Of a stretch of DNA of 64,000 bases, positions 21,809 to 49,411 are shown piece by piece (within the stretch, counting starts at the first letter, position 1; the number at the start of each line of letters is the position of its first letter). The DNA is taken from contig CAMVKH010000003.1 of the NCBI GenBank assembly GCA_947168065.1, positions 62,001 to 126,000 of the forward strand. Reading direction: 5' to 3'. The position numbers and the translations under genes are program-made. Source of the stretch: an uncultured Bacteroidales bacterium (GTDB lineage Bacteria; Bacteroidota; Bacteroidia; Bacteroidales; UBA932). The notes below the pieces were generated by a model that was not told the origin of the DNA, did not search any database, and saw nothing but the letters and a program-made list of their open reading frames with translations.

Positions 21809-22001
21809 GACGAAAAGCTGTCAAAGTCTTGCAGTTATCGGTCAAAAACCTTCCGCAATAAAGCGGCATCAGCCGCTAGCGGAGGCCGTTGTGTGAGTTT
21901 GTGTGATAGCAGGCCGTAGCGGCAGGTCTGGGCAGAGCCCAGTAGACACAGATGTCTATGGGTTTTTGACTCGATAACTGACGCGACAACAGCTTTTCGT
22001 C
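21809..22001. repeat. Broken inverted repeat enclosing a structured repeat copy
   Basis: GACGAAAAGCTG (21809-21820), GTTATCG (21834-21840) and TCAAAAACC (21842-21850) are matched in reverse by GGTTTTTGA (21961-21969), CGATAAC (21972-21978) and CAGCTTTTCGTC (21990-22001). This looks like a convergent-gene terminator for the C69 gene and the 22012 gene, with repeat copy A lying in its loop. Confidence 0.75.
21861..21944 (+). repeat. Structured interspersed repeat, copy A
   Basis: Begins with hairpin AGCGGC-ATCA-GCCGCT, continues with the central stem GGAGGCC / GGCCGTAG closing on the conserved motif TGTGTGATAGC, and ends with hairpin TGGGC-AGA-GCCCA followed by GTA. Intergenic, in the loop of the 21809-22001 inverted repeat. 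Confidence 0.9.
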
Positions 22002-22011
22002 TGCAAGCAGA

Positions 22012-22518
22012 TTACCGCAATCGTTTTACGTACGTGCTCAGGGTGATGACGTGGTCGTTTTTGGCGGCGTAGAAGCCGGTTTTCGGCTTTTTCTCAAGAC
22101 CTTCGACAATGGTGGTCAGCGGTGTGGAGCCGAGGACGTCGTTATAGGCACGGATCTGGTCGAGGTCATAGGTGTTGACGGCGTCCCAGAGACCTGCCAG
22201 GGCGGGAATCTTTTCCATCTCGTCGCGATTCCAGCGATTGTGCGCCGCCAGATATTCCACACCTTGTGCGATGTCTGTCTTGGAGGGTTTCGGGGTCTTT
22301 TCGGGCTCCGGCTCCGCGGGAACGGCTACGGTATCGACAAGAGCCACGACGAGCGTGTCGACCGGATCGACGGCGCCTTCCGGGCCGGCCGGTTCCGGCC
22401 GGTTCCGGTCGCCGAACTGCAGGCCCAGCACGAAGCCGATCAGCACGGCAACGACCAGCCCTGCAATGCTCAGCAGGTGCTTGAACAGCCCCGGATTCTT
22501 ATGTACATCGTCGGTCAT
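22012..22518 (-). CDS. Single-pass membrane protein of unknown function
   Basis: 168 residues. A short cytoplasmic start is followed by one membrane segment (about 15-34, LLSIAGLVVAVLIGFVLGL). The outer part is Pro/Glu/Val-rich up to residue 80 and then a compact domain with VEYLAAHNRWNRDEMEKIP, LAGLWDAVNTYDLDQIRAYNDVLGS and a C-terminal KNDHVITLSTYVKRLR. I do not recognise a family; it is reminiscent of small peptidoglycan- or envelope-associated proteins but has no SPOR or LysM signature I can defend. Transcribed alone, divergent from tRNA-Ser. Confidence 0.75.
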   Translation of the reverse strand: MTDDVHKNPGLFKHLLSIAGLVVAVLIGFVLGLQFGDRNRPEPAGPEGAVDPVDTLVVALVDTVAVPAEPEPEKTPKPSKTDIAQGVEYLAAHNRWNRDEMEKIPALAGLWDAVNTYDLDQIRAYNDVLGSTPLTTIVEGLEKKPKTGFYAAKNDHVITLSTYVKRLR

Positions 22519-22540
22519 AGCCGCAAATGTACAAATAAAT

Positions 22541-22571
22541 TTGGCAATTCTCAGAAATCAACCTATCTTTG
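22541..22571 (+). promoter_or_regulatory. Promoter upstream of repeat copy B and tRNA-Ser
   Basis: TTGG (22541-22544), 19 bases, then TATCTTTG (22564-22571): a textbook Bacteroidota promoter. The expected start near 22578 places repeat copy B in the 5' leader of the tRNA precursor. Confidence 0.75.
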
Positions 22572-22586
22572 CATTCCCCCGTCAGC

Positions 22587-22677
22587 AAGCGGCATAAGCC
22601 GCTAGCGGAGACCGAGCAGGGCTAGCCCTGTGTGATAGCAAGGTCGTAGCGAGGGGTCTGGAGCCAAGGCCCCAGTA
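22587..22677 (+). repeat. Structured interspersed repeat, copy B (tRNA leader)
   Basis: Hairpin AGCGGC-ATAA-GCCGCT, central stem GAGACC / GGTCGTAG (a compensatory change from GGCC / GGCC), the motif TGTGTGATAGC, and a modified 3' hairpin TGGAGCC-AA-GGCCCCA then GTA. It ends five bases before tRNA-Ser. Confidence 0.88.
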
Positions 22678-22682
22678 AATAC

Positions 22683-22770
22683 GGTGAGGTGGGTGAGTGG
22701 CTTAAACCACCAGTTTGCTAAACTGACGTACGGGATTACCGTACCGGGGGTTCGAATCCCCCCCTCACCG
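22683..22770 (+). tRNA. tRNA-Ser (GCT)
   Basis: Acceptor GGTGAGG pairs with CCTCACC, discriminator G; anticodon loop TTGCTAA gives GCT; the long variable arm GTACGG / CCGTAC marks a class II tRNA; T-loop GTTCGAATC. The 3' CCA is not encoded. It has its own promoter and terminator, so it is a single-gene unit. Confidence 0.95.
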
Positions 22771-22783
22771 CAAACATTGATAC

Positions 22784-22815
22784 ACAGCTGGTTGCAAAGC
22801 GACCAGCTGTTTTTG
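22784..22815 (+). terminator. Terminator of tRNA-Ser
   Basis: ACAGCTGGT and ACCAGCTGT form a nine-base stem with a nine-base loop, followed by TTTTTG. Confidence 0.85.
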
Positions 22816-22860
22816 TTATGCCCCCGTCGAGAGCTTGCTCCCGTAAGGGCGTGTACACCG

Positions 22861-22891
22861 TTGGATTATTGTAAACAATTCTTTAACTTTG
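22861..22891 (+). promoter_or_regulatory. Promoter of the TPR-CHAT gene
   Basis: TTGG (22861-22864), 19 bases, TAACTTTG (22884-22891), 23 bases before the ATG. Confidence 0.7.
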
Positions 22892-22914
22892 ATTCACGGC
22901 TAAATACTCAAAAT

Positions 22915-25905
22915 ATGTCTCTCTACCGTTTTTTCCGTGCCTGCTGGGTTGCCCTTCTCTTTTGCCTGGCCTTGCAGGCTCATGCACAGCCCCTCGATAC
23001 CCTTGCCCTCCGCGCCAAGGCAGATTCGTTGAATCAGGCCGGTGCCGAACACTATGCGAATGGTGACCCCGTGGCTGCGGTGGCTGCTTTCCAGGAAGCC
23101 ATCCAGATCCGGGAGACACTCCTGCAGGAGCGGAACGCCGCCCTTGTGAGCAGTTACAACGGCTTGGGTGTCAATCTCCTGTTTATGGGAGACTACGAAA
23201 GCGCCATCGTGCCGATCTCACGGGCGAAAGATCTCGCCCGGGAATTCCTCGGCGAGCAGCATCCGCTCTATGCGAACTGCCTCAACAACATAGGTCTCTG
23301 TTACTTGCGATTCTGCGACTACAACAAAGCGCTCGATTACATTACCCAGGCGGCGGAGATCCGTCGGGCCTTGGGCGAACAGACGCTGGAATATACGGCC
23401 TCCCTCGTCAATTTCGGCAACTGCTACCACGAACTGGGCGACTACAACAAGGCGATCGCGTACTTTACGGAAGCTGCCGACAGATATCGGAATACCGTAG
23501 GCGAGTTGTCGCAACAATTTGCCGGTACGACCAACAACATCGGCAACGCTTATTTTGATGAAGGAGAGTATGCCAAGGCTATCGAATACCTGACCCGCGC
23601 ATTGGATATCTACGAGCAGCTCGTGGGCGTGGAGCATCCGTTTTACGGGAATGCCGTCAACAATCTGGGCCGCTGCTATTCCGACCTTGGCGACTATGTC
23701 AAGTCGAGCGAATATTTCGCAAAAGCTACCGAAATCTATCGGAATGCTTTCGGCGAACAGAGTCCGTACTATGCGTTGGGCCTGGGCAATCTCGGAAACA
23801 CATATTACGAGATGGGTGAATTCGACAAGGCCATTGCGTATTTCAACGATGCCCTGGCGATTTATCGCGCCACGGTGGGCGAGAAGAATATGTATTGTGC
23901 CGGCTTTTACTCAGGACTCGGCATCACATATACGCTTCTCGGCGACTTTGGGCAATCGTATCCGTATTATCAGCAAGCGCTGGATATCACGCGGGAAATC
24001 GTCGGCGACAAGCATCCCGATTATGCGAGGTATCTCAACAATCTCGGAACCTACTACCACAATGTGGGCGACGATGCCAAGGCAATCCCGTGTTTTCAAG
24101 AAGCCTTGAACGTCTATCGCGAACAGTTCGGCGACCGTTATCAGGAAAACATCACGAGCCTCTTCTATCTCGGCAGTGCCTATGCAGCGCAAGGCGACCG
24201 GGATGCCTCGTCCTCCTGTTACCGCGACTATCTTTCCCTTGTTTCCGGAACCGTGCTGGAAGCTTTCACCTATCTCTCGCAGAACCAGCGGAGCTTGTTC
24301 TGGGACAAGTATAAAAACGATTTTGCGAAAGAGATCGCACAGCAGACACGCATCCTCTCTGACGACAAGCCCTTCCTGTGCGCCTCCTACGACGCCGCAT
24401 TGTTCTCGAAGGGACTGTTGCTGAATGCGGAGACGGAAATGCGCCGGCTTATCCTTGAGAGTGGCGACGAAGCAGCGCTGTCGCTGTACGACCGGCTCCA
24501 CATGGAACGCCTGCAACTGGACAGAGTCCTCGAGTTGCCCATTGCGGAGCGCCAGATGCCGGCCGACTCGCTTGCCCGAGTCTGCGAGACGCTCGAGCAG
24601 GAGCTCCAGCAGAAAAGCAAAACGTTCGGCGACTATACGAGGAACCTGTCGATCAATTGGAAAGACGTGCAGTCCGCTCTGGGGAAAAACGACATCGCCA
24701 TTGAATTCCTGGAGGTTCCGGTGTCCGAAGATACGACCGTGTACTGCGCCCTCACGGTTAAGCCGGGTTACGATGCGCCGCATTTCGTCGAACTGTTCGA
24801 CTTGAAGGACCTCAAAGCGCTGAAAGCGAAATACGAAGGACGAAGGAATTCCAATGGGCTGATTTACAGCGATAAGGAGTTGTACAACCTGGTTTGGAAA
24901 CCCCTTGCGTCGGAACTGAAGGGCGTTAGGAACATTTACTTCGGCCCTTCTGGCGAACTGTACCAGACCGCCATCGAGTATGCCGATCAGGGAAAGGGAC
25001 CCTTCAACAACCAGAAGAATCTCTATCGCCTGTCCTCGACCCGGCAATTAGTCGTCGATCGCGGAGAGGCGGAACACAGCCGCTCAGCCGTCTTCGGCGG
25101 CCTGAAGTACGGTGCTTCAGAAGAAGTGCTCTTGGCCGACAGCCGGAAATACGCGCAGCGCAGCATTTCGGATGACCTGTTCTTCAACGTTGATTCGCTC
25201 GACATCCGCGGTGCCGGCGGCAGCCTGATGGTCGCCGATCTGCCCGGCACGGAATCCGAGGCCCGGGAAATCGATGCGATGCTCCGCCAATCCGGCCTGG
25301 ACAACACGCTCCGTATGGGAGAGGAAGGCACCGAAGCCTCGTTCAAGGATCTCTCGGGAAGGCGCGAGAACATCATCCACATCGCCACACACGGTTTCTA
25401 TTGGAATGGCCGGCAGGCCCGTTCCATCGGCGAACGCCTCGGTCGTATTGTCGAAGACGGCGGTGTGCACGAAGATGTGTCGATGACACGGTCCGGTCTG
25501 TTGTTCGCCGGCGCCAACAACACCCTGCGCGGCCGCGAAAAGCAGGAAGGGGTGGAAGACGGCATCCTGACAGCCAAGGAAATCGCCCATCTCGACCTCC
25601 GCGGAACGGATCTGCTGGTCCTCTCGGCCTGCCAGACAGGCCTGGGCGAAGTAAGCGGCGAAGGCGTCTTCGGTCTGCAGCGCGGCTTCAAGAAGGCCGG
25701 CGTCAATACCATCCTGATGAGCCTCTGGGAAGTCGATGACGATGCCACCCGTCTGCTGATGACCGCCTTCTACAAGCAACTGGCGAAGGGTCTTTCAAAA
25801 ACCGACGCCCTGAAGGCTGCCCAGAAAGCGGTCAAGAACTACAAGGGCAAAGATTTCTCGTCACCCTACTATTGGGCCGCTTTCATCTTGCTCGACGGAA
25901 AATAG
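22915..25905 (+). CDS. Secreted TPR-CHAT protein (caspase-like protease)
   Basis: 996 residues: signal peptide (1-24, ending QAHAQ), about nine tetratricopeptide units of the kinesin-light-chain spacing between residues 40 and 430 (recurring LGDYxKAIxYFxxALxIY), a helical spacer, and a C-terminal CHAT domain (about 680-996). The CHAT catalytic pair is present: IATHGFYW with His826 and SACQTGLGE with Cys906; the domain ends SPYYWAAFILLDGK. CHAT enzymes are C14-like cysteine proteases; TPR regions bind the trigger or substrate. A signal peptide puts this one in the envelope, unlike the cytoplasmic CRISPR-linked TPR-CHAT. The frame is open upstream through the tRNA; the promoter at 22861-22891 decides the start. 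Single-gene unit with its own terminator. Confidence 0.9.
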   Translation: MSLYRFFRACWVALLFCLALQAHAQPLDTLALRAKADSLNQAGAEHYANGDPVAAVAAFQEAIQIRETLLQERNAALVSSYNGLGVNLLFMGDYESAIVPISRAKDLAREFLGEQHPLYANCLNNIGLCYLRFCDYNKALDYITQAAEIRRALGEQTLEYTASLVNFGNCYHELGDYNKAIAYFTEAADRYRNTVGELSQQFAGTTNNIGNAYFDEGEYAKAIEYLTRALDIYEQLVGVEHPFYGNAVNNLGRCYSDLGDYVKSSEYFAKATEIYRNAFGEQSPYYALGLGNLGNTYYEMGEFDKAIAYFNDALAIYRATVGEKNMYCAGFYSGLGITYTLLGDFGQSYPYYQQALDITREIVGDKHPDYARYLNNLGTYYHNVGDDAKAIPCFQEALNVYREQFGDRYQENITSLFYLGSAYAAQGDRDASSSCYRDYLSLVSGTVLEAFTYLSQNQRSLFWDKYKNDFAKEIAQQTRILSDDKPFLCASYDAALFSKGLLLNAETEMRRLILESGDEAALSLYDRLHMERLQLDRVLELPIAERQMPADSLARVCETLEQELQQKSKTFGDYTRNLSINWKDVQSALGKNDIAIEFLEVPVSEDTTVYCALTVKPGYDAPHFVELFDLKDLKALKAKYEGRRNSNGLIYSDKELYNLVWKPLASELKGVRNIYFGPSGELYQTAIEYADQGKGPFNNQKNLYRLSSTRQLVVDRGEAEHSRSAVFGGLKYGASEEVLLADSRKYAQRSISDDLFFNVDSLDIRGAGGSLMVADLPGTESEAREIDAMLRQSGLDNTLRMGEEGTEASFKDLSGRRENIIHIATHGFYWNGRQARSIGERLGRIVEDGGVHEDVSMTRSGLLFAGANNTLRGREKQEGVEDGILTAKEIAHLDLRGTDLLVLSACQTGLGEVSGEGVFGLQRGFKKAGVNTILMSLWEVDDDATRLLMTAFYKQLAKGLSKTDALKAAQKAVKNYKGKDFSSPYYWAAFILLDGK

Positions 25906-25912
25906 ATGGAGA

Positions 25913-25950
25913 AAAAAACAGCGCCAAGCATGCTTGAGCGCTGTTTTTTT
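25913..25950 (+). terminator. Terminator of the TPR-CHAT gene
   Basis: AAAAAACAGCGC and GCGCTGTTTTTT flank an inner palindrome CAAGCATGCTTG, giving one long stem with a T run. Confidence 0.9.
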
Positions 25951-25954
25951 TAGC

Positions 25955-25962
25955 TATCTTTG
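25955..25962 (+). promoter_or_regulatory. -7 element of tRNA-Pro
   Basis: TATCTTTG eight bases before the tRNA, placing the transcription start almost on the mature 5' end. Confidence 0.65.
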
Positions 25963-25970
25963 CAGCCTAT

Positions 25971-26043
25971 CGGGATGTGGCGCAGTTGGTAGCGCACTTG
26001 GTTTGGGACCAAGATGTCGCACGTTCGAGTCGTGTCATCCCGA
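25971..26043 (+). tRNA. tRNA-Pro (TGG)
   Basis: Acceptor CGGGATG pairs with CATCCCG, discriminator A; anticodon stem CTTGG / CCAAG with loop TTTGGGA gives TGG; T-loop GTTCGAGTC. The 3' CCA is not encoded. Confidence 0.95.
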
Positions 26044-26045
26044 CG

Positions 26046-26075
26046 GAGAGCGCCGTAAAGGCGCTCTCTTCTTTG
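26046..26075 (+). terminator. Hairpin between tRNA-Pro and glyS
   Basis: GAGAGCGCC and GGCGCTCTC with a five-base loop, followed by a T-rich tail; serves the convergent tRNA-Pro and probably glyS. Confidence 0.8.
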
Positions 26076-27623
26076 TTAGACCTTGTGGATCTGTTTGAAA
26101 AGGGGTTTCATGCTCACTTTCTCGGAAACGATCTCGCGCAGGCGGGCGATGGGGATGCGTTCCTGGGCCATGGTATCGCGGTCGCGGAGCGTTACGCAGC
26201 CGTCTTCCAGCGTGTCGTGGTCGATCGTGATGCAGTAGGGCGTACCGATGGCGTCCTGGCGGCGGTAGCGCTTGCCGATGGAGTCCTTCTCATCGTACTG
26301 GCAGTTGAATTCGAAACGCAGGTCGTCCATGATCTCGCGGGCCTTCTCGGGCAGACCGTCCTTCTTGACGAGCGGCAGCACGGCCAGCTTGACCGGCGCG
26401 ATGCAGGCCGGCAGGCGCAGCACGACGCGCTCCTCACCGTTTTCAAGCTTTTCTTCCGTATAGGCCGAGGACAGGATGGCCAGGAAGGTACGGTCGAGGC
26501 CGATCGAGGTCTCGATGACATACGGCGTGTAGCTCTCGTTGGTCTCGGGATCGAAATACTGGATCTTGCGGCCGGAGAACTTCTGGTGCTGCGACAGGTC
26601 GAAGTCGGTGCGGCTGTGGATGCCTTCGAGCTCCTTGAAGCCGAACGGGAATTCGAACTCGATGTCCGTGGCGGCGTTGGCGTAGTGCGCCAGCTTCTCG
26701 TGGTCGTGGAAGCGGTACTTCTCGTCGCCCAGGCCGAGGGCCTTGTGCCAGGCCAGACGCGTCTGTTTCCACTGGTTGAACCATTTCATCTCCTCGCCGG
26801 GACGGACGAAGAACTGCATCTCCATCTGCTCGAACTCACGCATGCGGAAGATGAACTGCCGGGCCACGATCTCGTTGCGGAAAGCCTTGCCGATCTGCGC
26901 GATGCCGAAAGGCACCTTCATGCGTCCGGTCTTCTGCACGTTGAGGAAATTGACGAAGATGCCCTGGGCTGTCTCGGGACGCAGGTAGATGGTGCCCACG
27001 CCGCCGTCCACGTTGCCCAGCTGCGTACTGAACATCAGGTTGAACTGACGCACGTCGGTCCAGTTCTTGGTGCCGGAGATCGGGCAGGCGATCTCACAGT
27101 CCACGATGATCTGGCGGAGTTCCTTCAAATCATTGTCGTTGAGCGCCTTGGTCATACGGGCGTGGACTTCGTCGTATTTGGTCTTGCTGCGCAGGACGTT
27201 GGGATTGGTGGCGCGGAACTGCTCTTCGTTGAACGCCTCGCCCCACTTGCGGCGGCCTTTCTCGACCTCTTTGTCCATCTTCTCCTCGAGCTTGGCCAGA
27301 TAATCCTCGATCAGCACGTCGGCGCGGTAGCGCTTCTTGGAATCCTTGTTGTCGATCAGCGGGTCGTTGAACGCGCCCACGTGGCCCGAAGCTTCCCAGA
27401 TGCGGGGATGCATGAAGATGGCTGAGTCGATGCCCACGATGTTGTCGTTGAGATAGACCATCGCCTCCCACCAGTATTTCTTGATGTTGTTCTTCATCTC
27501 GACGCCCATCTGGCCGTAGTCGTAAACGGCGCTCAGACCGTCGTAGATCTCGCTGGACTGAAAAATGAAACCGTACTCCTTGGCGTGCGCCACGAGCGTC
27601 TTGAATACTTCTTCCTGTGTCAT
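26076..27623 (-). CDS. glyS: Glycyl-tRNA synthetase (class II, single-chain dimeric type)
   Basis: 515 residues. YGFIFQSSEIYDGLSAVYDYG at the start, motif 2 FRNEIVARQFIFRMREFEQME and motif 3 ETSIGLDRTFLAIL are typical of the alpha2-type GlyRS shared with eukaryotes and many Bacteroidota. The C-terminal anticodon-binding domain contains SIGKRYRRQDAIGTPYCITID. The ATG overlaps the folK stop (ATGA), which decides the start although the frame is open for 15 more codons. Last gene of sufS / sufE-DUF59 / folK / glyS. Confidence 0.96.
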   Translation of the reverse strand: MTQEEVFKTLVAHAKEYGFIFQSSEIYDGLSAVYDYGQMGVEMKNNIKKYWWEAMVYLNDNIVGIDSAIFMHPRIWEASGHVGAFNDPLIDNKDSKKRYRADVLIEDYLAKLEEKMDKEVEKGRRKWGEAFNEEQFRATNPNVLRSKTKYDEVHARMTKALNDNDLKELRQIIVDCEIACPISGTKNWTDVRQFNLMFSTQLGNVDGGVGTIYLRPETAQGIFVNFLNVQKTGRMKVPFGIAQIGKAFRNEIVARQFIFRMREFEQMEMQFFVRPGEEMKWFNQWKQTRLAWHKALGLGDEKYRFHDHEKLAHYANAATDIEFEFPFGFKELEGIHSRTDFDLSQHQKFSGRKIQYFDPETNESYTPYVIETSIGLDRTFLAILSSAYTEEKLENGEERVVLRLPACIAPVKLAVLPLVKKDGLPEKAREIMDDLRFEFNCQYDEKDSIGKRYRRQDAIGTPYCITIDHDTLEDGCVTLRDRDTMAQERIPIARLREIVSEKVSMKPLFKQIHKV

Positions 27624-28788: not shown

Positions 28789-28791
28789 CGT

Positions 28792-30018: not shown

Positions 30019-30027
30019 AAATTAGCG

Positions 30028-30035: not shown

Positions 30036-30069
30036 CTATTTTTACAAGAAAATTCAAGAAAGAAACGCC

Positions 30070-36318: not shown

Positions 36319-36325
36319 TCGTGTT

Positions 36326-36418
36326 TACTGGGCTCTGCCCAGACCTGCCGCTACGGCCTGCTATCACACAGGCTCACACAACGGCCTCCGCTAGCGGCTG
36401 ATGCCGCTGTACCCAATC
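36326..36418 (-). repeat. Structured interspersed repeat, copy C
   Basis: Reading the minus strand: AGCGGC-ATCA-GCCGCT, then GGAGGCC, TGTGTGATAGC, GGCCGTAG and the TGGGC-AGA-GCCCA hairpin with GTA. Nearly identical to copy A in its 3' half. It lies directly behind the gcvH terminator. Confidence 0.9.
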
Positions 36419-36669
36419 GTTGTTTCGCCGCGAAAACACTGTGAGAGGCTTCAGGTTGTCGTCGCGGACCCAAAACAGCCAAAACCGCCGAAAAACACGC
36501 CGCGAAAACAACGTAGGCTCATCCAGAATGTCGTCACGGCAGATTTTCGTTAACGAGACGTCTCGCCAAACAGCCGCAAGATTATTAACACCAACTCGTT
36601 GAGAATCAACCCCTCTTGTTCTTCGAGCCTGACGCCTACGGCTTATTTCGGCCTGTGGCGCAACAAGAA
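36419..36669. other. Gene-free stretch with an imperfect direct repeat
   Basis: Two blocks, at about 36427-36468 and 36497-36541, share CGCCGCGAAAACA, AGGCT and TGTCGTC-CGG in the same order. Both strands show short open frames here (60-100 codons) with matching internal repeats (such as RDDILDEPTLFSRR and RDDNLKPLTVFSRR on the minus strand), but no start or promoter supports a gene. I see nothing else in this stretch. Confidence 0.5.
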
Positions 36670-40920: not shown

Positions 40921-41020
40921 AACATAAAGATACGCAAAAAACACGTAGTACGTATGAATTACGGGAATCTTTTTGACGCAGCCAGTTTACTCCCAAGGGT
41001 CGTGCTCTCGCCTACAGCTC

Positions 41021-41042
41021 GGGTGGGGCAGAGCCCCAGTAA
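41021..41042 (+). repeat. Lone 3' tail of the structured repeat
   Basis: TGGGGC-AGA-GCCCCA followed by GTA is the 3' hairpin of the family without a recognisable 5' part; it abuts copy D, as the lone tail in mnmG abuts the first full unit there. Confidence 0.7.
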
Positions 41043-41164
41043 GTCCGCATCAGCGGACCGCCGGAGGCCGGTACTTTGCTAAACACAGCTCATGAACGCA
41101 GAATTCTCAGCATTAGCAAAGTACTAAGGCCGAGAGGCGCGGGGTTTGGGGCAGAGCCCCAGTA
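41043..41164 (+). repeat. Structured interspersed repeat, copy D (extended)
   Basis: Hairpin GTCCGC-ATCA-GCGGAC (all stem bases re-paired compared with the other copies), central stem CGCC-GGA-GGCC / GGCC-GAGA-GGCG lengthened by TACTTTGCTAA / TTAGCAAAGTA, then TTGGGGC-AGA-GCCCCA and GTA. Lies 12 bases downstream of the mnmG stop. Confidence 0.85.
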
Positions 41165-41176
41165 ACAAAGACACAA

Positions 41177-43429
41177 TCAGCGGCCGAAATAGACGAGCAG
41201 TACGGAAATATCGGCCGGCGAGACGCCAGAGATGCGGGAGGCTTGGGCGATAGTACGGGGACGGTAGCGATCTAATTTGATACGGCACTCCATCGAAAGC
41301 GCGGTCAGCTTCTGGAAATCGAAGTTCTCGGGAATCTCGAGATTTTCCAAACGGAGAATCTTTTCAGCCAGCCGCTTCTCCCGCTCAATATAACCGGCAT
41401 ACTTGATTCGGATCTCCGTCGCATCGAGCACTTCGCGCTCTTCCCGCAAGATCTCAGCCGGCCTCTCTCGCCCCGCCCAAGGAATCCGCAAAGCAATATC
41501 AGCAGCCGAACGGTCGCCCAGCGAGCCAGGGGTTTGGGGCAGCGCCCCAGTATGGCAAGCGGCATCAGCCGCTAGCGGAGGCCGTGAGGGGGAGCCTTGT
41601 GCAATAGCGGGCCGGAGCGGCGGGGTTTGGGGCAGCGCCCCAGTATGGCAAGCGGCATCAGCCGCTAGCGGAGGCCGTGAGGGGGAGCCTTGTGCAATAG
41701 CGGGCCGGAGCGGCGGGGTTTGGGGCAGCGCCCCAGTATGGCAAGCGGCATCAGCCGCTAGCGGAGGCCGTGAGGGGGAGCCTTGTGCAATAGCGGGCCG
41801 GAGCGGCGGGGTTTGGGGCAGCGCCCCAGTATAGAAGGTTCTACGTGGAACATTTTGCAGGAGACCTTCCAGTGTCACGAATGGACGGACGAGAAGATCG
41901 GAAGCTCTCTTGGAGGTTTCTATCGGAGCTTCACCGACCTGCGTAAGATACGTGTTGATCTCGTCGGGTTTGACCGGGCGCTCTTCCAGCCAGTGGGCAA
42001 GATCCTCGATGGAAGCTTTCTTCTCTTGAAAGATTTTCCAACGGAAATCATCGACCAGCCCGATGCTGCGGCCGATTGGCGTAAGCCGTTCGTCGGCGTT
42101 GTCCTGACGAAGCAGGATACGGTATTCGGCACGGGAAGTAAACATCCGGTACGGCTCATCCACGCCTTTGGTCACCAGGTCGTCGATCAGCACACCGATA
42201 TAAGCTTGGTCGCGCTTAAGAATTAGAGGCTCCTTGCCGGCCAGCTTGAGATGCGCATTGATGCCGGCCATCAAGCCCTGCGCGGCAGCTTCTTCGTAAC
42301 CGGTCGTTCCGTTGACCTGTCCGGCCAGATAGAGGCCGGGGATGACGCGCGATTCCAGCGTGGACTGCAGCTGTGTCGGATCGAAGAAATCGTATTCCAC
42401 GGCATAGGCCGGGCGGAAGATCCGGACCTGCTCCAGCCCTTCGATGGCGTGCAGGGCGTCGATCTGTGTCTCGAGCGGAAGCGATGAGGAAAATCCCTGC
42501 AAATAGTATTCAAAGGTATTCCAGCCTTCCGGCTCGAGAAAGAGTTGATGCGAATCCTTGTCTGCAAAGGTGCGGAGCTTGTCTTCGATCGACGGACAGT
42601 AGCGCGGGCCAATGCCATGGATCTTTCCCGTGAAGAGCGGCGAGCGGTCGAAGCCCGTGCGAAGAATCTCGTGGACTCGCTCGTTCGTCCGAACGATGTA
42701 GCAGCACTTCTGCGACCGGCCCTGCTGGATGGCGGTCGGTACGGGAAGGAAAGAAAAGCGTTCAGGCGCACCGTCACCTTCCTGCATCTCCAAGCGGGAA
42801 AGATTGATCGACCGGACGTCGATGCGGGGCGGCGTGCCGGTCTTCATCCGGCCGACCGTCAGGCCGGCTTCTCCCAAAATCCGGGAAAGACCTTTCGACG
42901 GAAGTTCGCCCATCCGGCCGCCTTCCGCCATCTCGGTTCCGACAAAGAGCCGGCCTTCGAGGAAAGTTCCGGCCGTCAGAATCACCGATTTGGCCTGGAA
43001 TTCTGCGCCCATCCCCAGTCGGACACCGTAAATATGCGATTCTCGGAGCGTTATCTCGCTCACAGAATCTTGCCAAATATCTAAGCCACAGGTATTTTCA
43101 AGCACGAAGCGCCAGTTCATGGAAAAGCCGCGTTTATCGCACTGCGCACGGGGGCTCCACATCGCGGGCCCCTTCGAGCGGTTGAGCATCCGGAACTGGA
43201 GTGTCGAGGCGTCGGTCACGATACCGGAGTAGCCGCCAAGCGCGTCGATCTCCCGGACCAGCTGTCCTTTGGCGATACCCCCCATCGCGGGGTTGCACGA
43301 CATCTGGGCGATCTTGTTCATATCCTGGGTCACCAGGAGCACACGCGATCCCAGGCGCGCCGCCGCGACGGCCGCCTCGCAGCCGGCATGGCCGGCGCCC
43401 ACTACGATGATGTCGTACGAAGCGACCAT
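41177..43429 (-). CDS. mnmG: tRNA uridine-34 modification enzyme MnmG with a repeat-derived insert
   Basis: 750 residues; the family is usually about 620-630. The FAD site [17 protein letters not shown] (10-26), [51 protein letters not shown] and the C-terminal [21 protein letters not shown] are intact. With MnmE it puts a (carboxymethyl)aminomethyl group on U34 of several tRNAs. Residues of about 532-634 are an insert formed by a lone repeat tail plus three identical 31-residue units ([19 protein letters not shown] and [12 protein letters not shown]), placed in the linker before the C-terminal helical domain that binds MnmE. The insert keeps the frame. Four bases downstream of ybeY. Confidence 0.95.
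41529..41831 (+). repeat. Tandem array of structured repeat inside mnmG (tail plus three units)
   Basis: A lone 3' tail (41529-41556) is followed by units at 41557, 41650 and 41743, each 93 bases (31 codons), differing at no base I can find. Each unit has AGCGGC-ATCA-GCCGCT, GGAGGCC / GGCCGGAG, TTGTGCAATAGC and TTGGGGC-AGC-GCCCCA then GTA. The antisense frame is free of stops, which is why mnmG stays open. Confidence 0.95.
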
Positions 43430-43433
43430 CCGC

Positions 43434-43883
43434 TTAAGCTTCCTTCATCTGGTCGAGTTCTGCCAGCGCCCGGTTCTCGGCCGCACGCATCCGGCTGCGA
43501 TGCCAGTCGTCGCAATCGTCGTAGCCGATCAGGTGCAGAAGACCGTGGACGATGACCCGGTGTATCTCACGGTCGAATCCTTCTCCATAGGCCTTGCCGT
43601 TGATCCGCACGGTATCGACGCTGATGTAGATGTCGGCGCTCACACCCTTGCGGCCGGTCTCGAGCAGATAGTCTTCGGAATTGTCGAAGGTGATGATGTC
43701 GGTCTCGTAGTCGTGGCCGAGGAACTGCCGGTTTATGGCCAGCAGATACGGATCGGAGCAGAAAATGTAGTTGAGTTCGCCGATTTCAAAGCCCCGATTT
43801 TCGGCAACTTCGCGCAACCATTTGCTAACCAGACGTTTTCCTTTCAAGGTAAAAGTCGTATCTTCTGTGAAATACCGAATCAT
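43434..43883 (-). CDS. ybeY: Endoribonuclease YbeY
   Basis: 149 residues. The metal site [20 protein letters not shown] shows the first two zinc histidines; the third, usually His in GYDH, is Asp here, with a His four residues later, as in other Bacteroidota forms. [26 protein letters not shown] is the conserved centre. It processes the 3' end of 16S rRNA and takes part in ribosome quality control. Four bases before mnmG, so the two translation-related genes form one unit. Confidence 0.93.
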
Positions 43884-43892
43884 AAAAATTTA

Positions 43893-43900
43893 TACCTTTG
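43893..43900 (+). promoter_or_regulatory. -7 element of mdh
   Basis: TACCTTTG, 50 bases before the mdh start, in the gap to the divergent ybeY. Confidence 0.55.
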
Positions 43901-43950
43901 CAGATTAATGCAACAAAAATACATAAAATAAACTCAAACAAATAATCATT

Positions 43951-44898
43951 ATGTCCAAAGTTACAGTCATCGGCGCCGGCAACGTGGGCGCTACCTGTGC
44001 AAACGCCATTGCACACATGAAGATCTGCTCGGAACTCGTTCTTCTCGACATCAAGGAAGGTCTCTCCGAGGGTAAGGCTATCGATATGATGCAGACCGCC
44101 AAAATGTATGGTTTCGACACCCGCATCAAGGGCGTGACCAACGACTATGCGGCTACCCGCAATTCCGACGTGATCATCATCACCTCGGGCATTCCCCGCA
44201 AACCGGGTATGACCCGCGAGGAACTGATCGGCGTGAACGCAGGCATCGTCAACGGTGTGGTCGGCAACGCGCTCAAATATTCCCCGAAAGCCATCTTCAT
44301 CATCATCTCCAACCCGATGGATACGATGACCTATCTGACGCTCAAGGCCACCGGCCTGCCGAAGAACCGCGTCATCGGCATGGGCGGACAGCTCGACAGC
44401 AACCGCTTCTGCTTCTACCTGAGCCAGGCCCTCAAGGCCGCTCCGAGCGATGTGGAAGGCATCGTCATCGGCGGACACGGCGACACCACCATGATCCCGC
44501 TCATCAGCAAGGCTACCTGCAAGAGCATGCCTGTGACCAAGCTGCTCCGCAAGGCCGTGGCTGAAAAGGTCGTGGCCGACACCATGGTCGGCGGCGCCAC
44601 CCTGACCAAACTCCTCGGCACCTCCGCCTGGTACGCTCCGGGCGCTTCCTGCGCTGCCATGGTCAAGTCCATCCTCCTCGATGAGAAGAAGGTGTTCCCT
44701 TGCTGCTGCTACCTCGAAGGCGAGTACGGCCAGGACGACCTCTGCATCGGCGTTCCCGCCGTCATCGGCAAGCGCGGCTGTGAGAAGATCCTCAAGTACG
44801 ATCTGAACAAGGAAGAGCAGGCCGCTTTCGCAAAGAGCGCCGCTGCTGTGAAGAATGTTAATAACGTCCTTTACGAGAGCAAGATTTTAACTCGCTAA
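43951..44898 (+). CDS. mdh: Malate dehydrogenase (LDH-like type)
   Basis: 315 residues. NAD site VTVIGAGNVGATCANAI with LLDIKEG (the acidic residue selecting NAD over NADP), ITSGIPRKPGMTREEL with substrate arginines, SNPMDTMTYL and the catalytic GGHGDTTMIPL (His). It links malate and oxaloacetate; together with frdAB at 52 kb it belongs to the reductive branch to succinate that Bacteroidales use in fermentation. Own promoter and terminator. Confidence 0.96.
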   Translation: MSKVTVIGAGNVGATCANAIAHMKICSELVLLDIKEGLSEGKAIDMMQTAKMYGFDTRIKGVTNDYAATRNSDVIIITSGIPRKPGMTREELIGVNAGIVNGVVGNALKYSPKAIFIIISNPMDTMTYLTLKATGLPKNRVIGMGGQLDSNRFCFYLSQALKAAPSDVEGIVIGGHGDTTMIPLISKATCKSMPVTKLLRKAVAEKVVADTMVGGATLTKLLGTSAWYAPGASCAAMVKSILLDEKKVFPCCCYLEGEYGQDDLCIGVPAVIGKRGCEKILKYDLNKEEQAAFAKSAAAVKNVNNVLYESKILTR

Positions 44899-44922
44899 TC
44901 CCTAACTATTTAGCGGTTTTTT
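44893..44922 (+). terminator. Terminator of mdh
   Basis: CGCTAA and TTAGCG with an 11-base loop followed by GGTTTTTTC; the stop codon TAA is part of the left arm. Confidence 0.75.
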
Positions 44923-44956
44923 CGGAAAAGTTGTCAACAATTTTTTTGAAGAAAAA

Positions 44957-44988
44957 TTGGATTAAATGATTTTTTCTTCTTAATTTTG
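44957..44988 (+). promoter_or_regulatory. Promoter of the tonB-like gene
   Basis: TTGG (44957-44960), 20 bases, TAATTTTG (44981-44988); the leader is about 55 bases. Confidence 0.7.
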
Positions 44989-45049
44989 GGTACTAGTGCG
45001 TACAAAACGGCGCGATAGTTGATATTGAAACAACAAAAAACGTAACGAT

Positions 45050-45742
45050 ATGGAAAGCAAAATCACTCCCAAAGCTGACCTTCAGAAGAAGAACGCACTG
45101 TTCCTCGAGATAGGTTTGATCGTGGCCCTCGGCCTCTGCCTGCTCGCTTTCGAATGGTCTTCTACCGACAAGGTCGAAACGATGGACCTCACGGCCCAGA
45201 CCGTAGCCGTCGAAGAAGAAGAGATCATCAACACCCAGGAACAACAGGAAGTCCCTCCGGAGATGCCTAAGATTCCGGTACTTTCCGACATCATCGACAT
45301 TGTCGACGACGACATCCAGGTCAACGACGACCTGTTCATCGACACCGAGGACAACGCAAACCTCGGCGTGGAAATCATGGATTACCACGCAGCTGTCGAA
45401 GAAGAAGTAGTCGAAGAAGAAGCGATTCCGTTCGCCCTCGTGGAGGAGAAACCCAAATTCCAGGGCGGCGACGCGAACACTTTCTCCGCCTGGGTCAACA
45501 AGAACCTCCAGTATCCTGAGATCGCCAAGGAAAACGGTGTCCAGGGCCGCGTGACGCTGCAGTTCACGGTCAACACCGATGGTTCCGTCAGCGACGTGAA
45601 GGTGCTGCGTGGTGTCGACTCCTCGCTGGACAAAGAGGCTGTCCGTATCGTCTCGATGTCTCCGAAGTGGACGCCTGGCAAACAGAGAGAGCGTCCGGTG
45701 AAAGTGGTTTACAACTTCCCGGTCGTGTTCCAGCTCCGCTAA
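45050..45742 (+). CDS. tonB: TonB-type energy transducer
   Basis: 230 residues. One membrane anchor (about 19-36, LEIGLIVALGLCLLAF) and a C-terminal TonB domain (about 140-230: FQGGDANTFSAWVNKNLQYPEIA, GRVTLQFTVNTDGSVSDVKV, PVKVVYNFPVVFQLR). The linker (45-130) is acidic, rich in Glu/Asp/Val/Ile, instead of the usual Pro/Lys-rich spacer. It should pass proton-motive energy to outer-membrane TonB-dependent transporters such as SusC types. No exbB/exbD next to it. Own promoter and terminator. Confidence 0.9.
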   Translation: MESKITPKADLQKKNALFLEIGLIVALGLCLLAFEWSSTDKVETMDLTAQTVAVEEEEIINTQEQQEVPPEMPKIPVLSDIIDIVDDDIQVNDDLFIDTEDNANLGVEIMDYHAAVEEEVVEEEAIPFALVEEKPKFQGGDANTFSAWVNKNLQYPEIAKENGVQGRVTLQFTVNTDGSVSDVKVLRGVDSSLDKEAVRIVSMSPKWTPGKQRERPVKVVYNFPVVFQLR

Positions 45743-45762
45743 AAAAGGCTTTTTTACACACG

Positions 45763-45794
45763 AAGCGGCTACCTGAAAAGGCAGCCGCTTTTTT
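45763..45794 (+). terminator. Terminator of the tonB-like gene
   Basis: AAGCGGCT and AGCCGCTT with a 12-base loop, followed by TTTT. Confidence 0.85.
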
Positions 45795-45803
45795 GTTGTT
45801 ACT

Positions 45804-45997
45804 GGGGCAGATATTCTCTTGAAAAACCATGGCCATGCGCCTTCAGGCGCTAGCGGAAACCGTGTGGGAGGGTTTGTGTAATAGCAGGTTGTAGCGGCGG
45901 GGTTTGGGGCAGCGCCCCAGTAACTCTTATATGGGAGGGGCCCAGCGAAGCTGGGAGGGATGAGCGAAGCGAAGGTTTAAAAGAGAATATCTGCCCC
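45804..45997. repeat. Inverted repeat enclosing repeat copy F
   Basis: GGGGCAGATATTCTCTT (45804-45820) is perfectly complementary to 45981-45997. The enclosed 160 bases hold copy F and a small hairpin CCCAGC-GAA-GCTGGG (about 45941-45955). The whole lies between the convergent tonB-like and P1 peptidase genes. Confidence 0.8.
45837..45922 (+). repeat. Structured interspersed repeat, copy F
   Basis: Hairpin GCGCC-TTCA-GGCGC, central stem GGAAACC / GGTTGTAG (both variable pairs changed in a compensatory way), motif TTGTGTAATAGC, 3' hairpin TTGGGGC-AGC-GCCCCA then GTA. Confidence 0.9.
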
Positions 45998-46022
45998 CGG
46001 TCCCTAAACAAAAAAGCAATCT

Positions 46023-47168
46023 TTATTTCAAGATCGGCTGGCGCATGGCTTGAAGCACGGATTCGATGGGGAGGGCGGGGACGAAGTTGCCGTCGCGGCC
46101 TTTGGTGTCGGTGGCCATGAAGAGGGAATTCCAGAGGGCTTCAGCCGTGGCTTCGATGGTTGCCTCGAAGAGCGGGCTCATGTCGTCGTTGTGGAGCAGG
46201 GTCGGATAGTAGCGCTCCGTGCTCTCGTCGATCAGGTTCTCCGGATTGACGCTCACGGCAATCACGTAGTCGCCGCTGCCATTGGAGGCGATGCCGCCCG
46301 TCTTGGCGATGCCCATCATGGCACGCTTGGCCAGACGTTCGAGATTGCGGGCGTCCAGCGGAGCGTCGGTAAAGACCACCATCATGCAAGAACCGTCGGG
46401 ATTCATCAGATAATCAGGATTTTCCACACTGCTCTTGAAACTGTATTGTCCCAGGCGCCGGCCTACGGGCACGCCGTCGATTTCCAGGATGCCGCCATAA
46501 TTGGTCTGGACCAGGACGCCCACGGTGTAGCCGCCCAGGTCTTTCGGAAGAACGCGCGAAGACGTGCCGATGCCGCCTTTCCAGCCAAAGCAGACCGTGC
46601 CGACACCGGCGCCGACGCAACCTTCTTCCACGGGACCGCTTTTCGCGCTCACGATAGCCTTGACCACGTCGTCGGCCTTCACGTGCCGGCCGCGGATGTC
46701 GTTGAGATAAGAATCGTTCGTCTCACCCACCACCGCGTTGACGCTGCGTACCGATTCATTGCCGATCTGGCTCAGGGTATAGGATAGCACTCCTTCGATG
46801 CCCTGTGCCACGGAAAGCGTGTTGGTCAGCACGATAGGCGTCTCGATGTTGCCGAGTTCGCGGACCTGCGTCACGCCGGCCAGTTTGCCGAAACCGTTGC
46901 CCACATAAATGGCGGCGGGGCATTTCTTGCGGAACACGTTGCCGTCGTGCGGTACGATGGCTGTCACGCCGGTGCGGATATTGTCACCTTCTATAATGGA
47001 AACCTGTCCGACCCTGACACCCGGAACGTCCGTAATGGCATTATAGGTACCTGTCTTGAAAACGCCCGGTTCAATGCCGAAATCGCGGATGCGCCCGCGT
47101 CCGGCAGGCTGCGAAAAAGCGGTGAAACAAACGACCAGAAGCACGAAGGAAAGGCAAAATCTCTTCAT
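46023..47168 (-). CDS. Secreted P1-family (DmpA/S58) aminopeptidase
   Basis: 381 residues with a signal peptide (1-19, TAFSQ). TYNAITDVPGVRVGQ at the start and NPDGSCMMVVFTDAPLD are family hallmarks; Gly259-Ser260 is the expected self-cleavage site that frees the N-terminal serine nucleophile, as in DmpA L-aminopeptidase/D-esterase. GIASNGSGDYVIAVSVNPEN is the conserved late segment. Acts on short or beta-amino peptides in the periplasm. The chosen start gives a clean signal peptide; the frame is open further upstream into hflX. Confidence 0.9.
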   Translation of the reverse strand: MKRFCLSFVLLVVCFTAFSQPAGRGRIRDFGIEPGVFKTGTYNAITDVPGVRVGQVSIIEGDNIRTGVTAIVPHDGNVFRKKCPAAIYVGNGFGKLAGVTQVRELGNIETPIVLTNTLSVAQGIEGVLSYTLSQIGNESVRSVNAVVGETNDSYLNDIRGRHVKADDVVKAIVSAKSGPVEEGCVGAGVGTVCFGWKGGIGTSSRVLPKDLGGYTVGVLVQTNYGGILEIDGVPVGRRLGQYSFKSSVENPDYLMNPDGSCMMVVFTDAPLDARNLERLAKRAMMGIAKTGGIASNGSGDYVIAVSVNPENLIDESTERYYPTLLHNDDMSPLFEATIEATAEALWNSLFMATDTKGRDGNFVPALPIESVLQAMRQPILK

Positions 47169-47185
47169 AGGACTACATTTTTTTA

Positions 47186-47205
47186 CAAATATAATCGTAT
47201 TTTTG
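47186..47205. promoter_or_regulatory. Divergent -7 elements of the P1 peptidase and hflX
   Basis: TATATTTG on the minus strand (47186-47193) and TATTTTTG on the plus strand (47198-47205) lie four bases apart, so the two promoters must compete for polymerase. Confidence 0.6.
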
Positions 47206-47243
47206 CAAACTGAGTCCCCGGATATTGCCGGGAGCGCCATTCC

Positions 47244-48461
47244 ATGTACGAAACCGTTGATACACGCATACCCTCTGCCGTCTTCGTGGCGCTGATCACG
47301 CGCCAGCAGGACGAGACGCAGGTCAAGGAATATCTCGACGAACTGCAGTTCCTGGCCATGACGGCCGGGGTGGAAGGGGAACAGCGCTTCACCCAGCGCC
47401 TCGACCATCCCGACTCGCGCACCTATATCGGGTCAGGCAAACTGCAGGAAATCAAGAGTTTCGTCCGGGAGCACGAGATTGATTACGTGCTCTTTGACGA
47501 CGAACTTACGCCTTCGCAGATGCGCAATGTGGAGCGCGAGATCAACGAGCACTGGCCCGACCACCACTGCAGCGTCGTGGACCGCACAGGCTTGATCCTC
47601 GACATTTTCGCCGACCGGGCGCAGACCGCGTACGCGAAGACCCAGGTCGAGCTCGCGCAATACCAGTATCTCTACCCGCGCCTGACGGGTATGTGGACGC
47701 ACCTCGAGCGGCAGCGTGGTGGCAAAGGGGGTCTCAACATGCGTGGTCCGGGTGAAAGTCAGTTGGAGACCGACCGCCGCATCGTCCTCGACAAGATCAC
47801 CCGGCTCAAGGACCAGCTCCGCAAGATCGACCGTCAGATGGCCTCGCAGCGATCGAACCGCGGCCAGATGGTGCGCATCTCGCTGGTAGGTTACACCAAT
47901 GTGGGCAAAAGCACGATCATGAACCTGCTCTCCAAGAGCGACGTCTTTGCCGAAAACAAGCTTTTCGCGACGCTCGACACCACGGTCCGCAAGGTCGTGA
48001 TCGAGAACGTACCGTTCCTGCTCAGCGATACGGTAGGTTTCATCCGCAAGCTCCCCACGCAGCTCGTGGAATCGTTCAAGAGCACGCTCGACGAGGTGCG
48101 CGAAGCCGACATCCTGATGCACGTCGTGGACATCTCGCATCCCAATTTCGAAGATCAGATCCGGGTCGTAAGCCAGACGCTCAAGGACATCGGGGCGCAG
48201 GACAAGCCCGTGTACATGGTGTTCAACAAGATTGACGCCTACCGCTACGAGCCCTACGACGAGTTCTCGCTGCAGGAGAAAACAGAAAAGAATTACACGT
48301 TGGAAGAGCTCAAAAACAGCTGGATTTCCAAGGAACACACGCCGTGCATCTTCCTCTCCGCCAAGGAGAAAATCGGTGTCGACAAGCTTCGCAACGACCT
48401 CTACAAGATGGTCGCCGAAATCCACGCCGGCCGCTACCCGTTCAACAATTTCCTCTGGTAA
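47244..48461 (+). CDS. hflX: Ribosome-associated GTPase HflX
   Basis: 405 residues. The N-terminal HflX domain has HPDSRTYIGSGKLQEI and FDDELTPSQMRNVE; the RGGKGGLNMRGPGESQLETDRR stretch (landmarks GGKG and GPGESQLE) precedes the G domain with GYTNVGKST, DTVGFIRKLP and FNKID. HflX splits stalled or hibernating ribosomes. The stop codon lies in the left arm of a 39-base inverted repeat. Confidence 0.96.
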   Translation: MYETVDTRIPSAVFVALITRQQDETQVKEYLDELQFLAMTAGVEGEQRFTQRLDHPDSRTYIGSGKLQEIKSFVREHEIDYVLFDDELTPSQMRNVEREINEHWPDHHCSVVDRTGLILDIFADRAQTAYAKTQVELAQYQYLYPRLTGMWTHLERQRGGKGGLNMRGPGESQLETDRRIVLDKITRLKDQLRKIDRQMASQRSNRGQMVRISLVGYTNVGKSTIMNLLSKSDVFAENKLFATLDTTVRKVVIENVPFLLSDTVGFIRKLPTQLVESFKSTLDEVREADILMHVVDISHPNFEDQIRVVSQTLKDIGAQDKPVYMVFNKIDAYRYEPYDEFSLQEKTEKNYTLEELKNSWISKEHTPCIFLSAKEKIGVDKLRNDLYKMVAEIHAGRYPFNNFLW

Positions 48462-48565
48462 CAGCCCATAGCAAAAGCATATTCTGTTTTTAAGACCTGT
48501 CGCTTTGCGACCCTGTCCGGGTGAATGGTCTTAAAAACAGAATATGCTTTTGCTATAAGCTGTTA
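48459..48565. repeat. Long inverted repeat joining two convergent stop codons
   Basis: Arms 48459-48497 and 48527-48565 pair over 39 positions with two mismatches; 30 of them (48468-48497 with 48527-48556) are perfect. The 29-base loop has its own hairpin GTCGC-TTT-GCGAC. Each arm contains the stop codon of one gene (hflX and the hydrolase), and the A/T runs lie within the stem, so it can end both transcripts. Confidence 0.9.
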
Positions 48566-49411
48566 CGCAATAAATGCAGTCATTGCCTCGACGACGGCGT
48601 CCTGGCGTTCGATGAAGGCGTTGTGGCCGGTGTCGGGGATGAGTTGGTAGGAGACTTTCGGGAAGAGGGTTTTGAGCTTTTCAACCATTTCCAGCGGCTG
48701 GAAGTTGTCGTGGTCGCCGTGGATCAGGAGCAGGGGGACGGGCGGCTGCTGCATCACGGGCTGCAGGTCGGGGCGGGTACGGAGGCCTTCAATCGAGCTG
48801 ATGATGCCTTCCGGGTCGTGGGTTTCGCAGAGTTCGATCGTTTCACGGATCTTTTCGTCGCAGGCGCGAAGATTCTCTTCGTGGTACATCCGGGGAATGG
48901 ACAGGGCGGCCAAGGTCGAAAGTTTTCCGGCTGCGATGCATTTCTTTTCCTCGGCACGATCCGCGGCCTTTTCCGGTGCATCGGGGAAGGGATGCGACGA
49001 GAGCAGGATGGCCTTTTCGACCAGCTGCGGATAATCGTGGAGGAACTGCAGCGTCACGTAGCCGCCCATCGAATGACCGGCCAGGATGACTTTCTCCACG
49101 CCGCATTTGGCCATGACGCCGGCAACGACGGAAGCGCAGAAAGCCAGCGAGTTAACCCGCTGTCCGGAAGCGTCCGCAGGAGCCGAATCGGTCAGGCCGT
49201 GGCCGGGCATGTCGATTACGATCACGCGGTAGCGCGTCTTGAGGGCATCCACAAGCTCATTGAAAACATACATCGTCTCCAGATACCCATGCAATAGAAA
49301 CACACAGGGTCTGACTGGCGGCAAAGCGGCATCAGCCGCTTGCAGCGCCCCAGTATTACCGGTATCCCAAGTATGGACAGAAATACCGGCGGCGGTGGTA
49401 AAGAATTCCAT
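48563..49411 (-). CDS. Alpha/beta hydrolase with a repeat-derived N-terminal insert
   Basis: 282 residues. FLLHGYLETMYVF (oxyanion hole HG), DMPGHGLTD and the nucleophile elbow AGHSMGGYV with Ser114; Asp and His of the triad lie in LLIHGDHDNFQP and IPDTGHNAF. Probably a soluble esterase or lipase-like hydrolase of unknown substrate. Residues of about 19-32 (TGALQAADAALPP) are encoded by a shortened copy of the structured repeat. It starts two bases after GH20 and ends in a long inverted repeat. Confidence 0.88.
   Translation of the reverse strand: MEFFTTAAGISVHTWDTGNTGALQAADAALPPVRPCVFLLHGYLETMYVFNELVDALKTRYRVIVIDMPGHGLTDSAPADASGQRVNSLAFCASVVAGVMAKCGVEKVILAGHSMGGYVTLQFLHDYPQLVEKAILLSSHPFPDAPEKAADRAEEKKCIAAGKLSTLAALSIPRMYHEENLRACDEKIRETIELCETHDPEGIISSIEGLRTRPDLQPVMQQPPVPLLLIHGDHDNFQPLEMVEKLKTLFPKVSYQLIPDTGHNAFIERQDAVVEAMTAFIA
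49323..49355 (+). repeat. Structured interspersed repeat, copy G (internal deletion, in coding sequence)
   Basis: Hairpin AGCGGC-ATCA-GCCGCT is joined directly to the 3' end CAGCGCCCCAGTA; the central part is missing. It lies in frame in the N-terminal coding region of the hydrolase and yields TGALQAADAA, close to TGALP and AADAACH in mnmG. Confidence 0.8.

Follow-up and report, generated by a model that had tools for sequence, protein, structure and literature searches.

BOX and ERIC elements are modular, structured repeats of about 100 nucleotides (nt) in intergenic DNA. Repetitive extragenic palindromes (REPs) and REPINs, which go together with REP-associated tyrosine transposases (RAYTs), are dispersed and non-autonomous, prefer gene ends and sometimes lie inside genes, and Rickettsia palindromic elements (RPEs) place units in the open frames of unrelated protein genes. 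For CGTC-tagged repeats no dedicated transposase is known. PMC3733652 reports that REPs occur in genes for replication, repair and tRNA modification and that Bacteroidetes carry CGTC repeats, and PMC6006769 describes atypical secondary structures that flank subclass 2.6 TnpA-Y1 genes of Bacteroidetes. Here we describe a structured repeat in a 64,000-nt stretch of an uncultured Bacteroidales bacterium (the window), which spans positions 62001-126000 of contig 3 of a 2.02 Mb draft genome with a completeness of 76.9% (G000). It is probably a non-autonomous, genus-limited dispersed DNA repeat of REP/RPE-like character, with a three-hairpin fold, that acts as a folded single strand.

In behaviour the repeat is REP/RPE-like, and its sequence agrees with neither REPs nor RPEs. 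BOX and ERIC, compared by description, are likewise modular, structured and intergenic and of similar length; for the element described here, however, no Rfam family was matched. At the Rfam gathering cut-off, the window yielded tRNAs alone. At E<=1 on the loci L096, L348 and L350, no match covers the element, the non-tRNA matches sitting on tRNAs, on a duplicated part of a tRNA or on the terminator beyond; one match (E=0.54) reaches the last bases of the L350 copy. With REPs and REPINs the repeat shares the traits listed above, but it has three different hairpins in a fixed order, and a GTAG or GGAG foot is absent from every one of them (the 3' strand of the central stem contains a GNAG whose second base varies). 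It resembles RPEs in its open-frame units, and differs from RPEs and CGTC repeats (PMC3733652) by ending in approximately GTNA instead of CGTC, by its sequence and fold, and by a strong link to tRNA ends. Among the open-licence titles listed, none concerns this repeat, which does not imply its absence from print.

With one copy as query, blastn returned 25 matches in the genome of the window. Of these, L019 and L020 (twin array copies) and the tail L027 stayed unaligned; two window copies were added, and 20 of the resulting 24 aligned rows constitute alignment A1 (left out are the partial L028, the module-bearing L007, the class II copy at 41043 and the twin L014). All rows of A1 stem from blastn hits, except the window copy at 45835. 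This alignment, made independently of structure, reveals a layout of a 5' hairpin (P1), a central stem (P2) and a 3' hairpin (P3), followed by approximately GTNA. P1 reads GCGGC-ATCA-GCCGC, with variants. P2 consists of GC, a GGA/GNA internal loop, four pairs GRCC/GGYC and a variable apex ending in GATAGC, and P3 is GGGGC-AGN-GCCCC. Two classes are distinguished, class I of about 88 nt and class II of about 124 nt, in which P2 is lengthened by 12 bp. As P1 and P3 are different hairpins, the unit lacks the terminal inverted repeats of miniature inverted-repeat transposable elements, and no target duplication was seen. Integron attC sites and group II introns were dropped as candidates by inspection alone.

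The stems are conserved as pairs. In A1, 97.7% of the cells are paired, and 20 compensatory cells compare with 4.9 ± 1.7 after shuffling, a number that none of 500 shuffles reached; sliding the partner by 1-3 columns lowers pairing to 30-52%. The nine class II copies contain 21 compensatory cells against 6.6 (0/500 shuffles), with both sides changed in 10 of 32 pairs. A larger set of 101 distinct class I copies (84-96 nt, taken from the 126 copies introduced below) has 104 compensatory cells, where 200 shuffles give 35.7 ± 7.2 and at most 51; in these copies of about 88 nt, pair 6-13 is G-C in 65, C-G in 36 and otherwise in none, and pair 25-55 is G-C in 67, A-U in 33 and otherwise in 1. The copies from GTDB contigs were found with a pattern that fixes part of P1 and P2, which biases them at the columns concerned. 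Further pair types were no more numerous than in shuffles, which equalled or exceeded their count in 476/500 (A1) and 375/500 (class II). The compensatory stem changes claimed in a preliminary description of this DNA are thus borne out in both classes, although the controls, shuffling and column sliding, leave the effect of shared ancestry in place.

A covariance model built from 20 copies (R1) gave 39 matches at E<=1 in the genome of the window and 31 at E<1e-4 (27 class I, 4 class II). Contig 3, 13% of the assembly, holds 13 of these 31 (P=5e-5, tandem copies counted singly); it is also the contig that carries mnmG, and is possibly origin-proximal. Eight copies in the window score E<=3.7e-6, and reading of the sequence finds copies at the places given at first for nine or more full or partial copies with three shared elements. 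Two copies at unrelated sites of this genome, at 21861 and 36325, are 96.6% identical over 88 nt.

Beyond this genome, 27 of 61 genomes have matches at E<=0.01. All belong to the genus (27/37, that of the window included), and none of the 24 genomes of other genera, each from another family of the order, has one; the filters of this survey are stricter and lose weak matches. The highest copy number is 47, in G036, a near relative used for site comparisons. A MnmG tree of 30 members of the genus includes seven repeat-free genomes, of which six cluster (support 0.67) and one, G002, is separate. An exact pattern matched 81 GTDB genome stretches, and the 80 titles examined all name Bacteroidales or Bacteroidia; animals in the titles of repeat-bearing genomes are goat, sheep, water buffalo, red deer and horse. 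The genus may be Cryptobacteroides, which lives in the rumen. The exact pattern had 0 matches in viral contigs, and blastn found no match to the repeat in phages. Eighty of the 81 stretches (L167 left out) were searched. The resulting set of 126 copies combines 104 found with R1 and 22 copies of the window's genome outside the window; it includes the weak or chimeric L098 4913, L114 2912 and L138 2073 and lacks the copy on contig 6 (L348).

The P3 end adjoins tRNA genes. A tRNA gene lies within 16 nt of P3 in 38 of the 126 copies (within 6 nt in 37), whereas one copy, itself between two tRNAs, has a tRNA within 20 nt of P1. The bias has a binomial P of 1.5e-10 for independent copies, which not all of them are, the same tRNA genes recurring across species. 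Twenty-five of the 38 copies are on the strand of the tRNA and end 0-6 nt 5' of it (Met, Gln-ctg, Gln-ttg, Asp, Ser-gct, Arg-cct), and the other 13 are antisense on its 3' side (Leu-tag, Gly-ccc, Arg-ccg). In the genome of the window, 7 of 30 copies examined (of 31) adjoin seven different tRNA genes, against 0.03-0.26 expected by chance for 31 copies, assuming 50 tRNA genes and 12% intergenic DNA. A class II copy in G036 departs from the side rule, standing after tRNA-Met with its P1 side facing the tRNA; there (L350 857-1165) the full tRNA-Met and the copy are followed by about 35 nt of duplicated tRNA 3' sequence.

Read genome by genome, tRNA-Ser(gct) is preceded by a full copy in G000, G036, G007, G003, G001, G004, G011 and G034, by P3 or P1-P3 remnants in G015, G023 and G024 and, at a contig start, in G018; in G027, G028 and G029 the position just before this tRNA holds no copy. 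Repeat-bearing genomes mostly from another part of the tree (G010, G013, G016, G021, G022, G030 and G032) are also copy-free directly before this tRNA. The pattern is compatible with one ancestral insertion followed by decay.

These positions bear on an alternative in which the unit is a cis-acting structured RNA that influences processing or stability as a module of pre-tRNA 5' leaders, 3' trailers and mRNA 3' ends, its copies being retained for that role. The same-strand copies before tRNAs, the TATCTTTG box upstream of the copies at tRNA-Ser and tRNA-Asp, the P3 hairpin kept by the eroded copies of G015, G023 and G024, and the invariance of several unpaired positions of A1 alongside the paired ones all suit it, and a role in pre-tRNA leaders is a serious rival. 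As a general account it is rather unlikely: 13 of the 38 tRNA-side copies are antisense on the 3' side, relatives lack a copy at the same tRNA, 10 of the 37 genus genomes are repeat-free, and the copies in coding frames and arrays are ill-suited to a single RNA role. The structured regulatory RNA named in the preliminary description stays in play, above all because of the tRNA leaders.

Copies elsewhere sit at gene ends, and convergent ends are preferred. The 100 copies with two called neighbours comprise 40 in convergent, 53 in same-direction (32 + 21) and 7 in divergent spacers, compared with 52, 118 and 67 among 237 background spacers of at least 30 nt, copy-holding spacers included (chi-square P=1e-5). 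By the home-made gene finder, 10 further copies lie inside called genes and 16 lack a called neighbour on one side. Thirteen copies end -3 to +1 nt from the stop codon of the facing gene, some of them at one gene across species. The GTNA after P3 is conserved in part only, and since the stop-codon TCA at L033 is also present in a relative without the unit, part of GTNA can be target sequence (115 of the 126 right flanks were parsed and 68 non-redundant ones kept). A few copies end beside parS-like palindromes (L105 5448, L166 5654 and the mnmG arrays). A general rule that copies land 5' of hairpins is not supported for the P3 end. Both flanks of 54 non-redundant non-tRNA copies are more hairpin-prone than shuffles (right 7.67 versus 6.63, P=6e-6; left 7.39 versus 6.76, P=0.018), and the right is no more so than the left (P=0.27). 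The element is on the G-rich strand in 40 of 86 cases, which gives no signal for replication strand and is uninformative, the loci being nearly free of skew.

A more specific possibility, to which we give little weight, is that of a tRNA-seeking mobile element, in which P3 is joined at a near-fixed distance from either end of a tRNA, or beside parS-like sites, on either strand, by machinery that recognises the folded DNA or is directed to the site by proteins bound to tRNA or parS. If true, the element would be a bacterial parallel to the tRNA-targeting retroelements known from eukaryotes.

Comparison between species finds sites occupied, eroded or empty; at the outset, such a comparison had been proposed between strains. 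At tRNA-Asp, the unit stands between AATCG and the tRNA in G000 and is absent in G027; no target duplication is seen, though a few neighbouring bases differ. The copy at 36325 is full in G000, and G036 keeps its P3 end alone, consistent with a deletion between two AGCGGC repeats. Conversely, the 49323 unit has an internal deletion in G000 and is full in G036. Of 17 flank pairs compared with G036, 13 gave a reading: six share the unit (L033, L038, L050, L051, L053 and L055), one is the 36325 remnant, and six lack it (L029, L031, L034, L039, L048 and L056); at L029, L031, L048 and L056, the differences extend into the neighbouring intergenic sequence, so that these are not clean insertions. Together with the covariation and the genome-wide copies, the occupied and empty sites support the earlier proposal of a REP-like dispersed element whose folded strand is maintained.

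Two enzyme families, Y1 and RVT_1, were tested against repeat presence. The preliminary description had proposed a Y1/RAYT-type mover or a non-autonomous relative of IS200/IS605, and movement of a REP-type element by a Y1 (RAYT-like) transposase of the genus, encoded elsewhere, would be a special case of our preferred reading of a dispersed DNA repeat. The genome of the window has three Y1 genes. Of the genus genomes with the repeat, 23 of 27 have Y1 genes, as do 3 of 10 without it (Fisher P=0.0026), and Y1 and repeat copy numbers have a rank correlation of 0.58; no target duplication is seen, hairpins stand at both ends of the unit, and one Y1 protein gives a weak match of 37.7 bits, below the cut-off of 80, to the NCBIfam REP-transposase model. 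However, the co-occurrence tracks clades and is confounded because the repeat-free genomes fall in few of them, four repeat-bearing drafts have no Y1 match, and the GTAG foot is absent. Moreover, none of the 45 Y1 neighbourhoods examined (of 64 genus Y1 matches; 210,224 nt, 41 of the 45 from repeat-bearing genomes) holds a copy, the best match having E=0.56, where about three would be expected in 210 kb at the density of the window's genome. No P3 motif occurs in these neighbourhoods, and a single P1-like decamer is attributable to chance. The structures of PMC6006769 are similar in being structured repeats of Bacteroidetes with copies elsewhere in the genome; they differ in flanking Y1 genes, which the present repeat does at 0 of 45 examined. 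Movement by a Y1 enzyme therefore appears improbable, and the unit has no ends in common with an autonomous element of the IS200/IS605 kind at the 45 Y1 genes examined.

If the repeat spread by reverse transcription of an RNA copy, 5'-truncated copies with a fixed 3' end would result. Lone P3 tails exist (18 pattern matches, about half of them distinct and real once same-site repeats and chance matches are removed), and eroded tRNA copies keep their 3' end, but copies retaining the 5' part alone also exist and the 36325 tail of G036 fits the deletion described above. A link to reverse transcriptase is not supported: RVT_1 genes are present in 8 of 27 genomes with the repeat and in 2 of 10 without it, and are absent from the draft genome of the window. 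We consider this route highly improbable.

Several observations weigh against a dispersed mobile repeat. No mobilising enzyme was found near the copies, and there is no general preference for sites beside hairpins. The presence of the unit at tRNA-Ser(gct) follows clades, as expected from inheritance alone. None of the sites compared shows a bare unit inserted cleanly between otherwise identical flanks; most differ in flanking sequence as well, so that some of the turnover may reflect exchange of entire intergenic regions. Template switching, too, can generate compensatory changes in short hairpins without selection; the correction of palindromes in this way could mimic selection in P1 and P3, and less easily in P2. 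Dedicated mobility may be lacking altogether, with palindromes spreading and staying paired through template switching, tandem duplication and intergenic exchange, and ancestry explaining the distribution. A tandem array with duplicated flanks, internal deletions, modules that mix, and long inverted repeats around some copies that by reading differ in sequence and stay complementary would all fit; near-identical units at unrelated sites (21861 and 36325) and the bias of 38 to 1 at tRNAs would not, and this explanation has in our view a small share of the probability. Under the preferred reading of a dispersed repeat acting as a folded single strand, a trans-acting enzyme would recognise that strand and the P3 end would be the joining end. 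Tandem duplication and internal deletion would alter the number of units of the repeat, which has no visible gene of its own, and the units would sit where harm is small, at gene 3' ends, tRNA flanks and apparently tolerant stretches of proteins.

Full class I copies in the window lie at 21861-21945 (plus strand), between convergent genes; at 22587-22678 (plus; 92 nt, with an apical stem), 4 nt 5' of tRNA-Ser(gct) (22683-22771, plus), which adjoins its P3 end; at 36325-36409 (minus); and at 45835-45923 (plus). At 40989-41042 (plus), a lone P3 hairpin (41021-41042) is preceded by a module of about 40 nt (TTTACTCCC...CTCGGGT), and a class II copy of 124 nt with the 12-bp P2 extension follows at 41042-41165 (plus). 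Another lone P3 hairpin at 41529-41552 (plus) marks the start, within mnmG, of an array of three full class I copies in 93-nt tandem, at 41557-41646, 41650-41739 and 41743-41832 (all plus). The module (TTTACTCCCnnnGGTCGTGCTCTCGCCTnCGGCTCGGGT; 40989-41027 in the window) has the same insertion point before P3 in L055, L092, L094, L126, L128 and L152 and also occurs outside repeat copies (L061, L068).

The 21861 copy is the tip of a long inverted repeat with arms at about 21809-21851 and 21960-22001, and the 45835 copy lies within another, at about 45803-45826 and 45974-45997. These belong to a longer element with imperfect inverted repeats ending in approximately TCAAAAACC...GGTTTTTGA (21809-22001 and 45803-45997 in the window; L031, L055, L138 and L349), whose tip is either the three-hairpin unit or a GGGAGGGGCCCAGCGAAGCTGGGAGGG core. 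The arms vary among copies yet remain complementary, and the core in L107 seems to have the opposite orientation to that in the window. A second dispersed family (GACGACA...CTCACANTGTTTTCGCGGCG), at 36426-36467 and 36498-36539 in the window and in L031 and L349, resembles the CGTC-tagged repeats described in PMC3733652.

Antisense open frames cross the unit, giving a stretch of 29 residues or relatives of it, in proteins that match seven families: MnmG, alpha/beta hydrolase, FAD oxidoreductase, DnaX, LptA/OstA-like, methyltransferase and helix-hairpin-helix. MnmG is the one among them compared with unit-free homologues. In the window, mnmG (41177-43429, minus; 750 aa) carries the array antisense within its open frame, three 93-nt units with their flanks duplicated along with them, against one unit in G036 (open frames of 755 and 693 aa). 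A further array lies just downstream of mnmG in G036, and the MnmG of G011 has a related insertion at the same place. A parS-like palindrome inside mnmG adjoins the 3' end of the third unit (GTTCTACGTGGAAC, 41838-41851; GTTCCACGTGGAAC in L119) and codes VPR(R/G)T; 26 of 30 aligned MnmG sequences of the genus have VPRGT, and repeat copies adjoin the palindrome.

The alpha/beta-hydrolase gene (48563-49411, minus; family assigned on the G036 version) contains, near its N-terminus, the middle-less copy at 49323-49356 (plus), in which P1 is joined to the P3 end. Its full counterpart lies at L107 6564-6653, and both the full and the shortened unit keep the frame, with a length difference of 57 nt. 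The initial statement that the repeat has no open reading frame must thus be qualified, since the mnmG frame runs through three copies and the hydrolase frame through the 49323 copy. One copy stands in sense orientation within an open frame that we take to be RsmE. At L359 2364-5702 and L360, a DnaX-containing frame spans about 1113 aa, with about 500 open codons preceding the DnaX match, a fusion being one possible reason.

Dozens of related genomes in one genus make it possible to compare how a structured repeat folds, where it sits and how many copies there are. The one-sided placement at tRNAs is a specific, testable clue to how repeats without genes choose their sites, and the copies in open frames indicate that such repeats add peptides to core proteins such as MnmG and DnaX far from Rickettsia.

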